A stretch of 39,707 nucleotides of DNA. Source: Alphaproteobacteria bacterium (GTDB taxonomy: Bacteria > Pseudomonadota > Alphaproteobacteria > UBA9655). The notes beneath the pieces were generated by a model. It did no database searches. It had not been told where the DNA came from and saw nothing but the letters and a program-made list of their open reading frames with translations. Where the stretch lies: contig JAIEPE010000042.1 in the NCBI GenBank assembly GCA_019749915.1, positions 1 to 39,707 of the forward strand, written 5' to 3'. The position numbers and the translations under genes were made by a program. Within the stretch, counting starts at the first letter, position 1, and every line of letters begins with the position of its first letter. Positions 7,661 through 33,050 of this stretch are shown here, piece by piece.

Positions 7661-7738
7661 TGTCATTCCCGTCCTCGCGAAGGCGGGGAGCACGGGAATC
7701 TAGTTGTTTTGTGGATCCCCGCATGCGCAGGGATGACA
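7661..7738. repeat. B-type intergenic palindromic repeat, copy 2
   Basis: TGTCAT (7661-7666) and ATGACA (7733-7738) close the element. The left arm, ATTCCCGT...ACGGGAAT around GCGAAGGC, is a longer variant than at 1959. The right arm is GGATCCCCGCATGCGCAGGGATGACA. It lies 46 bp after rpmG and may serve as its 3' end structure. Confidence 0.8.
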
Positions 7739-16267: not shown

Positions 16268-17779
16268 ATGGGCGATTTGCACTCTGTGCCGGGGAGTAAC
16301 TTGACACCCCTGAGTTTGATCAAGCATCTTGAGAATAAATTATTGATTGGTGGGAAACTTATGGCCGCAAAAAGCCAGCAGTCTTTCCCCATCCATAATC
16401 CAGCCACTATGGAAGTCATTGGTCATGCAGCTGAAGCGGATGCTCAGGATGTGAATGACGCCGTTGAAATCGCGAAGAAAGCTCAAAAGGAATGGCGGCA
16501 TATGGATGCGGCCAAGCGTGGCCATTTAGTAACCCAGTGTGGTGATCTTTTGGAGGCACATCAAGATGAGCTTGCACGTCTCATGACCCTTGAAACAGGT
16601 AAAGCTTTGCGTACAGAAAGCCAAGTAGAAGCCAAAATTTTTGCGAATACCTTTCGTTTTTATGGTGGTCTTGCCTTAGAGCTGAAAGGAGAGACTATCC
16701 CCTTTAGTGATTCCATGTTAGCCGTTACTATTCGTGAGCCCTTAGGCGTTGTAGGCGCCATTATTGCTTGGAATGTTCCCCTCCTTTTGATGTCTCTCAA
16801 GGTGGCCCCTGCTCTTGTAGCTGGGAATACGGTTGTGATTAAGTCCGCTGAAGAGGCTCCCTTTGCCGTTTTAAGAGCGGCTGAGATTATGAATACTATT
16901 CTTCCTCCAGGAGTGCTTAATATGATTTCCGGCGATGGACCCACAACGGGAGAAGCTTTGGTGCGTCATCCAGATGTGGCAAAGGTCACCTTTACAGGGT
17001 CCGTTGAGACGGGAAAAAAGATTTATAAAAATTCCAGTGAAAAGTTAGTTCCTGTTACTTTGGAGTTGGGGGGGAAAAGTCCCATGATTGTGTGTGAAGA
17101 CGTTGATGTGGATAAGGTCATTGAAGGGGCCCTGACCAGTATGCGTTTTACTCGTCAAGGACAGAGTTGTACGGCCGCAAGTCGGATTTTTGTTCATGAG
17201 TCTGTTTTTGGTTCCTTTCTGGAAGGTCTGAAGGCAAAGCTCAATGAGCTTAAAATTGGTGATCCCATGGATATGGAAACGGATGTTGGTAGTGTGATTT
17301 CTCCCACTCAACACCAAAAGATTCTCACCTATGTGGATATAGGGAAAAAGACGCCTGGGGCTACGGCTCATGAGTGTTCAGCTTTACCTACAGATCCTAA
17401 GCTTTCAAAGGGCCTTTTTGTCCAGCCTGTCCTTTTCACAGGTATTCCCAATTCTCACCAGTTGAGTCAGGAAGAAATCTTTGGCCCCGTAACCGTTTTG
17501 ATTCCTTGGAAGAATTTTGATGATGTTATCAACCAGGCTAATGATTCGGACTATGGCTTAGCGGCAACTCTTTGGACAAATGATTTAAAGCGTGCGCTGC
17601 AAGGGGTTCACCGTCTTGAAGCTGGCTTTGTTCAGGTTAATCAGAATGTAGTTGTCCAGCCCGGCCTTTCCTATGGAGGCATGAAGTCTTCTGGAGTTGG
17701 TAAGGAGGCCTCCCTTGAAGCCATGCTAGAGCATTTTACCCATAAGAAAACCATTATTTTTAATATGAGTGGGGACTAG
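16268..17779 (+). CDS. NAD(P)+-dependent aldehyde dehydrogenase
   Basis: This encodes 503 residues. A near-perfect ribosome site (GGAGG) precedes the ATG at 16268. Catalytic residues are in place: Asn169 (AWNVPL), Glu266 (LELGGKSP) and Cys301 (GQSCTAAS). Cofactor segments VIKSAEEAP and FTGSVETGK fit the betaine/phenylacetaldehyde-type ALDH group, but the substrate cannot be fixed from sequence. The first 30 residues or so extend beyond the usual start, and a second ATG (MAAKSQQ, near residue 32) is a possible shorter start. It is divergent from the alpha/beta hydrolase gene. Confidence 0.93.
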   Translation: MGDLHSVPGSNLTPLSLIKHLENKLLIGGKLMAAKSQQSFPIHNPATMEVIGHAAEADAQDVNDAVEIAKKAQKEWRHMDAAKRGHLVTQCGDLLEAHQDELARLMTLETGKALRTESQVEAKIFANTFRFYGGLALELKGETIPFSDSMLAVTIREPLGVVGAIIAWNVPLLLMSLKVAPALVAGNTVVIKSAEEAPFAVLRAAEIMNTILPPGVLNMISGDGPTTGEALVRHPDVAKVTFTGSVETGKKIYKNSSEKLVPVTLELGGKSPMIVCEDVDVDKVIEGALTSMRFTRQGQSCTAASRIFVHESVFGSFLEGLKAKLNELKIGDPMDMETDVGSVISPTQHQKILTYVDIGKKTPGATAHECSALPTDPKLSKGLFVQPVLFTGIPNSHQLSQEEIFGPVTVLIPWKNFDDVINQANDSDYGLAATLWTNDLKRALQGVHRLEAGFVQVNQNVVVQPGLSYGGMKSSGVGKEASLEAMLEHFTHKKTIIFNMSGD

Positions 17780-17794
17780 AAGAGAGAAATATTC

Positions 17795-18076
17795 ATGCCC
17801 TCTTATGTGTATATCCTTGCAAGCAGAAAAAACGGTACGCTATATACCGGAGTCACATCAAATCTTATAAAGAGAGTATACGAACATAAAGAAAAAGTTT
17901 TTGGGGGATTTACAGCTGAATATAATGTCAATCTCTTGGTCTATTATGAAATGCATGAAGAAATATCTGAAGCAATTTTACGAGAAAAGCGCATAAAAAA
18001 ATGGCGGCGAGCTTGGAAGTTAGAGCTTATTGAAAAGGAAAATCCTTACTGGAAGGATTTATATGAACAATTATAG
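17795..18076 (+). CDS. GIY-YIG nuclease family protein
   Basis: This encodes 93 residues, one stand-alone GIY-YIG domain of the UPF0213/YhbQ type. YVYILASRKNGTLYTGVTSN carries the VYI...YTG version of the motif, LIKRVYEHK the catalytic Arg region, and EAILREKRIKKWRR the conserved Glu/Lys helix. Such small proteins are common in alphaproteobacteria, and their cellular role is unsettled. It starts 15 bp after the aldehyde dehydrogenase stop, with only a weak GAGAGAAA ribosome site. Confidence 0.9.
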   Translation: MPSYVYILASRKNGTLYTGVTSNLIKRVYEHKEKVFGGFTAEYNVNLLVYYEMHEEISEAILREKRIKKWRRAWKLELIEKENPYWKDLYEQL

Positions 18077-18167
18077 AGTTATTAAACTGCGTCATGTGGG
18101 GAAATGGTGGGTTATTTAAGGATCATAGTGCTCCTCACTGGATCTTCCCTCTTGTTATACATACCCA

Positions 18168-18327
18168 CGTCATCCCGGAATTTAGAAAAGCTTAGCGTTT
18201 AGCTTAGCTTTTCTTAATATCCGGGACCCAGGAATACCATGTTTCGAAACTCGCTCTAGGTCCCGGATATTAAAAAACCCTAACACTCGCAATAGCTCGT
18301 GAAGGGTTTTTAAATTCCGGGATGACG
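18168..18327. repeat. 160-bp palindromic element that can fold as a three-arm cloverleaf
   Basis: A 17-bp outer arm, CGTCATCCCGGAATTTA (18168-18184), is exactly complementary to 18311-18327. Three hairpins lie inside. The first has a 9-bp stem, 18184-18192 with 18206-18214. The second has a 14-bp perfect stem, 18215-18228 with 18259-18272, with the palindrome GTTTCGAAAC at its loop. The third has a 9-bp stem, 18273-18281 with 18303-18311. The first and third stems share end bases with the outer arm. No protein is encoded. Both sides of the element (18077-18167 and 18328-18458) show nothing recognisable. Confidence 0.88.
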
Positions 18328-18458
18328 CCAGAAGGTAGAGTACGGGTTTCCTCTTATTTTAGACGTTTGCTGTGACCTCTAACTGTCCCCATTGTTAAGC
18401 TATAAGTGGTGTGCTATAAGCTTTTTTATATTCAAATTTGGTTATAAAAGGAAAAAAT

Positions 18459-20459: not shown

Positions 20460-20554
20460 CGTCATTGCGAGAAGGGTCGAAGGCCCGACGAAGCAATCCA
20501 TCTTTCCAATGAATCCATGGATTGCCGCGCCCACTGTGTGGGCTCGCAATGACG
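20460..20554. repeat. C-type palindromic repeat, copy 1
   Basis: CGTCATTGCGAG (20460-20471) and CTCGCAATGACG (20543-20554) are exact inverted ends. Inside lie GAAGCAATCCAT and ATGGATTGCCGCG. The other copy, at 33696-33789, has the same modules in reverse order, so the two copies point opposite ways. Elements of this style are scattered through many proteobacterial genomes. Confidence 0.85.
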
Positions 20555-20562
20555 GGTAACAC

Positions 20563-32870: not shown

Positions 32871-33050
32871 TGTCATCTCCGCGGAGGCGGAGATCCATCT
32901 TTGCTTCCTACTGGACCCCGCTGTCAAGCAGCGGGGCGTCAATGTAGAGCGTGGTTTTTAAATCGGTTTTGACGTCCCGCGGATTTACCGCGGGATCCAG
33001 TCATTTTCTGGATCCCTGTGTTCCCCGCCTTTGCGAGGACGGGGATGACA
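32871..33050. repeat. A-type repeat inserted within a B-type repeat
   Basis: The left B half starts TGTCATCTCCGCGGAGGCGG (32871). The right B half ends CTTTGCGAGGACGGGGATGACA (33050). Between them, 32911-33000 is a complete A element with CTGGA...TCCAG ends, hairpins CCCCGCTG-TCAAG-CAGCGGGG and CCCGCGG-ATTTA-CCGCGGG, and GACG boxes. The rest of the 32780-33138 gap shows nothing I can name. Confidence 0.85.

Follow-up and report, generated by a model that had tools for sequence, protein, structure and literature searches.

A 160-bp palindrome composed of two inverted CGTC-type repeats and its association with stand-alone GIY-YIG nuclease genes

CGTC REPs were described by Di Nocera, De Gregorio and Rocco in 2013, and include RPE-4 and RPE-6 of Rickettsia as well as dRS3 of Neisseria, which is the CGTC-1 REP (PMC3733652). 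They carry the tag CGTC (or TGTC/CCTC), are prevalent in Alphaproteobacteria and occur mostly as inverted dimers with spacers of 20-100 bp, and the four described families have stems of 8-9 bp and loops of 4-5 nt (PMC3733652). No dedicated enzyme was reported for them and their mover was left open, no transposase gene being flanked by them (PMC3733652).

The window, a 39,707 nt contig of an alphaproteobacterial genome [GenBank accession JAIEPE010000042.1], includes a 160-bp palindrome made up of two units that share with CGTC REPs the CGTC head, an AT at the start of the stem, an unpaired CCA-type tail and an arrangement mostly as inverted dimers. The units of the window differ in having a longer stem, an internal loop, a T.T mismatch and a variable arm. 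A further difference from the published CGTC REPs is the GIY-YIG gene found here between repeats. As the tag, tail and dimer features agree but the stem and loop sizes do not, the units represent a long-armed variant outside the four described families.

The arrangement also resembles REPINs and the RAYT-associated GTAG REPs, which likewise consist of dispersed inverted pairs of tagged imperfect hairpins and have a gene-bearing form framed by repeats, but the tag is different, the nuclease family is unrelated and there is no Y1 transposase in two copy-rich genomes. The nearest biochemical precedent is Ssn of Neisseria, reportedly described in Nat Commun in 2025 as a GIY-YIG site-specific single-strand nuclease that acts on dispersed NTS repeats and has a role in DNA uptake. 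Like the system considered here, Ssn is a single-domain GIY-YIG protein paired with a dispersed repeat, and long-armed dimers, an empty site and a relation between residues and bases are not known to have been described for it. If the Ssn repeat is dRS3, the pairing of nuclease and repeat is already known, and what the present analysis adds is the element architecture, the long-armed dimers, the empty site and the residue-base relation. Among the papers searched, none joined GIY-YIG with REP terms.

Anatomy of the palindrome and its conserved pairing

The features of the region, in coordinates of the window, are as follows.

17779-18378, plus strand: 600-bp insert between an aldehyde dehydrogenase (ALDH) gene and cpoB/ybgF, delimited by the empty site in three congeners.
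17795-18076, plus strand: stand-alone GIY-YIG nuclease gene (93 aa), assigned from Pfam GIY-YIG (E 1.4e-15), conservation and an AlphaFold model.
18168-18327, no strand assigned: cloverleaf, an inverted dimer of two long-armed CGTC-type units with CGTC heads outward and CCA/CTA tails inward.
18168-18230, plus strand: Unit A, with a CGTC head, stem ATCCCGGAATTTAG..CTTAATATCCGGGA, apical arm GAAAAGC..GCTTTTC and tail CCCA.
18231-18256, no strand assigned: dimer spacer with a 10-bp palindrome, delimited from the sequence and by comparison with gene-bearing elements.
18257-18327, minus strand: Unit B, an inverted version of the Unit A repeat with a different apical arm, AAACCC..GGGTTT.

The palindrome is located ∼90 bp 3′ of the GIY-YIG gene and upstream of the cpoB/ybgF-type gene. 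Its closing stem, CGTCATCCCGGAATTTA / TAAATTCCGGGATGACG, is a perfect 17 bp and encloses three hairpins, the middle one with a 15-bp stem, TTAATATCCGGGACC / GGTCCCGGATATTAA, and a loop that holds the 10-bp palindrome GTTTCGAAAC. As single-stranded DNA the region has a minimum free energy of -53.4 kcal/mol, compared with -17.0 +/- 3.1 in 200 dinucleotide shuffles (z = -11.9), none of which was as good. The sequence and this DNA fold bear out the 17-bp stem, three hairpins and middle-loop palindrome described in the first-pass annotation. A structured RNA, also suggested there, is unsupported, as the palindrome has no Rfam match at gathering thresholds.

Each unit is 58-81 nt long and forms 17 pairs with an internal loop and a variable apical arm. 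The 5′ side of the stem reads ATCCCGG[A/G]-A-TT-T-AG and the 3′ side CT-T-AA-TA-[T/C]CCGGGA, followed by a CCA/CTA tail. Unit A shows the conserved A/TA internal loop and T.T mismatch. A T-A pair of the stem is present in 24 of 25 units, with U-G in the other, and the preceding A faces C in many units. Both ends of the element in the window read CGTC outward, while copies in one congener (G011) read TGTC. The position of the dimer spacer is that in which gene-bearing elements carry the GIY-YIG gene.

The two units are inverted copies of each other with their tails inward, and each of the two long stems of the cloverleaf is divided between them. Two separate hairpins and a cloverleaf are therefore alternative folds of one sequence. 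In an alignment of 25 distinct units, the 17-pair helix within the unit is paired in 95.5% of cells, a figure that favours the helix as the structure was written from these same sequences, and 11 pairs show two-sided changes, which are the stronger evidence for the unit helix. The covariation score was 0.434 against 0.159 +/- 0.017 in shuffles (0 of 500 as high), and slid controls were all far lower. Across 17 dimers, Watson-Crick pairing is found in 327 of 340 positions within units but 291 of 340 between units, i.e. in the cloverleaf, and at the most variable stem position, position 6, in 33 of 34 against 13 of 34. It is thus the unit hairpin, rather than the closing stem, that selection has maintained. 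Since compensatory changes preserve pairing inside each unit, the 17-bp closing stem is a by-product of symmetry, and it is perfect in the window because both units there are of the A-T subtype. The cloverleaf was accordingly rejected as the selected structure. It may nevertheless form, as the computed energy favours the whole-element fold over two hairpins in all 17 elements.

Copies and empty sites in the genus

The first-pass annotation had proposed searching the genome and its relatives for further copies, and this search was productive. The source genome (G000) has a second full copy on contig C63 that is 94% identical across arms 2 and 3, with an unrelated arm 1 (GCCCTGTCCCTGCGAAAGCAGGGAAACAGGGC where the window has GAAAAGCTTAGCGTTTAGCTTAGCTTTTC). 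Arms are exchanged like modules, as arm 1 is between these two copies. Among 17 genomes of the family, copy numbers were taken as BLAST matches, which overstate copies as a palindrome matches on both strands; there were 38 in G008, 27 in G006 and 15 in G011, and none in several congeners. Full dimers (17 in total) were extracted from these three genomes and the source genome. Hybrid copies, in which a short GTCATTCCCGCGAAAGCGGGGACCCAGG-type unit is the partner of a long one, also occur (L034, L045, L047, L056). Given other copies and compensatory changes, the one-off palindrome that the annotation had considered is ruled out.

In G008, ∼10-20 bp outside the CGTC heads, AAATTATAAAAACTT ... ACGGTGGGGAGTAGAAAAA, are common to several copies (L043, L049, L046, L039), and the moving unit may therefore exceed the palindrome. 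A nested insertion is seen in the same genome, where a short CGTC-type inverted dimer lies within the apparent arm of a long CCCGG unit (L100:1829-2086). Five loci of G011 (L040, L044, L048, L051, L057) contain a larger repeated element that has GCGCACTAGTGTCCGGGGAAA / TTTCCCCGGACACTAGTGCGC as its inverted ends and encloses a cloverleaf or one unit; this element in turn interrupts the loop of a short CGTC repeat hairpin. As several G011 copies are inside a different element, they may have spread as passengers, and part of the spread is then by other means.

Cloverleaf-type units are also found near a capsid gene at three different positions, in the source genome (L019:2632-2794, contig C63), in G006 (contig C118) and in G011 (contig C244). 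Nearly every genome of the family has this conserved capsid gene, which probably belongs to a gene transfer agent. Searches of viral contigs with the capsid protein found only distant relatives (37-49%), useless for an empty site.

A clean empty site, also sought at the suggestion of the first-pass annotation, was found for the copy in the window. In three congeners (G009, G010 and G014), the ALDH stop codon directly abuts the cpoB leader (GGGGTCTAACTGCCCC in G009). Besides the GIY-YIG gene and the cloverleaf, the insert holds a further 51 bp, and both edges are CTA (17776-17778 and 18379-18381), a possible 3-bp target duplication. The gene and cloverleaf, absent from these three genomes, would have arrived either in one insertion or in successive insertions. 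The dimer has clear inverted ends, but these are not the edges of the insert, which have only CTA in common; edges that are not CGTC heads do not fit simple transposition of unit ends.

Other candidate sites were less clear. The second copy in the source genome was rejected as a clean empty site because relatives hold another gene region there, indicating replacement rather than simple insertion. At two further loci of this genome, L022 and L023, also rejected as the sites are not clean, the body of a recombination-promoting-nuclease-like gene, which G014 has (L353), is replaced by a GIY-YIG gene and its GTCATTGCGAG units. This composite occurs twice in the source genome, 95.8% identical over 597 bp.

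GIY-YIG nuclease genes and flanking repeats

The predicted nuclease of the window is a single domain with intact catalytic residues, and Y6, Y17, R27 and E64 are conserved in the family. The AlphaFold model has a pLDDT of 95.7, the nearest solved folds are UPF0213 and Slx1, and there is no NCBIfam family for the protein. Two other small GIY-YIG genes of the source genome lie between inverted units in the order GTCAT-stem-ATCCAG, gene, CTGGAT-stem-ATGAC, and the GIY-YIG genes of the genus mostly lie between inverted units of this GTCAT-stem-ATCCAG design (15 of 22 by the scoring rule). The gene in the window has no unit on its 5′ side, and no GIY-YIG gene directly between two CCCGGAATTTAG units was found in the genus.

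The association extends over many phyla. Protein similarity was the sole criterion for choosing loci, which leaves their flanks unselected. When the 300 bp before each GIY-YIG gene was compared with the 300 bp after it, the inverted match across the gene was above the 99th percentile of shifted controls in 54 of 76 named loci, with medians of 46 for a locus's own pair, 22 when the before and after segments were swapped between loci and 19 for shifted segments. A strict unit finder was applied to 210 stand-alone GIY-YIG loci, not all of them independent because those from the genus and class comprise related sequences and a few sites entered the set twice. It detected units on both sides of 99, on one side of 53 and on neither side of 58. 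On control regions it returned single units in 37 of 397 and both-sided units in 1 of 187. The left and right units of a locus tend to match. By association, then, a stand-alone GIY-YIG gene flanked by repeats of this kind constitutes the gene-bearing form.

Similarity between proteins correlates with similarity between their units (68 loci; Mantel rho 0.48, permutation maximum 0.28, p 0.0005). Because a gene is passed on with its flanks, the correlation is partly shared descent, and co-inheritance alone could give it. Among 141 clusters, residues 69 and 71 associate with the sixth stem base (p6): E69 occurs with G in 13 of 13, and N71 with C in 40 of 44. At protein identities of 0.6-0.8, p6 is shared by 0.81 of the pairs that have the same residues at both positions, as against 0.24 of the pairs that differ at both. 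At identities of 0.5-0.8 the difference in p6 sharing is 0.40, compared with 0.01 +/- 0.05 (maximum 0.27) when 150 pairs of variable residues were drawn at random, in a test that is not fully independent since residues 69-71 were first chosen by eye from part of the data. The AlphaFold model places these residues at the turn between helices 57-69 and 72-82. The covariation is indirect support for a predicted site-specific cleavage of single-stranded repeat DNA.

The protein of the window has K69-W70-R71. The K69/R71 class goes with p6 C in 10 cases and G in 4, including the window itself, and the sequence of the turn is thus compatible with the G of the cloverleaf unit yet does not predict it. 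A single-residue rule in which K69 corresponds to base C would have excluded the nuclease of the window as partner of the cloverleaf, but both C and G occur with K69/R71 in the larger set, so that the nuclease may be this partner. At other loci (L387, L149), genes for R-W-R-type proteins are bordered by long CCCGG units that have a GGGACCCA end.

Proposed system and alternatives

The sequences above show the anatomy of the dimers, their dispersal, the covariation within units, the insertion together with the gene and the nesting of GIY-YIG genes between units. On this basis we give a probability of about 60% to the proposal that single-domain GIY-YIG nucleases target CGTC REPs and that the repeats probably spread with them, the cloverleaf being the gene-free form. 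The 160-bp palindrome is, from its sequence, the gene-free version of an element that consists of two inverted CGTC-type palindromic repeats, and the gene-bearing version, by association, has such repeats around a stand-alone GIY-YIG nuclease gene. We infer that the protein recognises and cuts the unit, most likely as a hairpin in single-stranded DNA, and that the cutting drives spread. Residue-base covariation and the model point to recognition through the K69-W70-R71 turn between two nuclease helices. By nicking at units, the nuclease could help the dimer, alone or together with the gene, to be copied or inserted elsewhere, much as in homing or REPIN-type systems. We know of no strand-joining chemistry for the GIY-YIG domain, and host repair or recombination would therefore be needed. 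The unit hairpin would be the recognised and conserved object, and the cloverleaf fold a consequence of two near-identical inverted units. GIY-YIG genes of this kind usually lie between matching repeats in bacteria at large, and the enzyme may thus be the partner, long missing, through which CGTC repeats spread.

A less probable but plausible reading is that GIY-YIG nucleases target the repeats to control uptake or recombination of single-stranded DNA, as with Neisseria Ssn and its repeats, and that the repeats themselves have spread through ordinary recombination or other elements. This reading likewise predicts the association, the matching units and the covarying residues, and members of the genus carry GTA-like capsid genes with cloverleaf-type units near them in three genomes. 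Control of uptake alone leaves unexplained why an inverted pair of units frames the gene in the layout of the dispersed dimers, and why the 600-bp empty site covers both gene and cloverleaf. A passive RNA element or bidirectional terminator that multiplied through chance duplication would fail to account for GIY-YIG nesting across phyla and for residue-base covariation. That explanation has no Rfam family to draw on and is considered very unlikely, despite the position of the palindrome between two co-directional genes and arms with A-rich 5′ and T-rich 3′ sides that look terminator-like.

The first-pass annotation had also raised a binding site for a junction-resolving protein. The lower computed energy of the whole-element fold and the presence of Slx1, a nuclease of branched DNA, among the nearest folds would suit a four-way junction conserved as a site for a junction-binding or resolving protein. 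However, the between-unit stems are not conserved, the between-unit pairing of column 11 being broken in most dimers where within-unit pairing is kept, and hybrid dimers of a long and a short unit cannot fold as a cloverleaf. A junction site is considered very unlikely. The annotation's other proposal, a mobile element with a repeat-specific transposase, is supported as far as a mobile element and a repeat-specific enzyme are concerned, given the dispersed copies, the clean empty site and the GIY-YIG nesting. A RAYT or IS200-type Y1 transposase acting as on GTAG REPs and REPINs is the least likely of the alternatives. The layout, an inverted pair of tagged hairpins with a mismatch, does resemble REPINs, and Y1_Tnp genes are present in the source genome. 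Against this, the tag is CGTC and not GTAG, CGTC repeats do not flank transposase genes according to Di Nocera et al. (PMC3733652), and Y1_Tnp matches are absent from G011 and from G008, which is 100% complete and has the most repeat matches. A Y1/RAYT mover was rejected on the last ground.

With a nuclease gene that CGTC REPs flank in many phyla, units that match from left to right and covariation with the protein, the question of what moves these repeats becomes directly testable. If the preferred reading, in which GIY-YIG nucleases target and spread the repeats, is true, it would provide a non-HUH, GIY-YIG-based route for the spread of short palindromic repeats and a natural catalogue of nuclease/target pairs that differ in sequence preference. 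The broader proposition, that CGTC REPs, a large class of bacterial repeats, and single-domain GIY-YIG nucleases form a bacteria-wide mobile system with gene-bearing elements, gene-free dimers and a specificity readable from residues 69/71 to the stem, is put forward more tentatively, at somewhat less than even odds.

Further short inverted CGTC-type pairs are present in the window at 1960-2028, 7662-7737, 32872-33049 and about 20460-20555, the last being of the GTCATTGCGAG kind.
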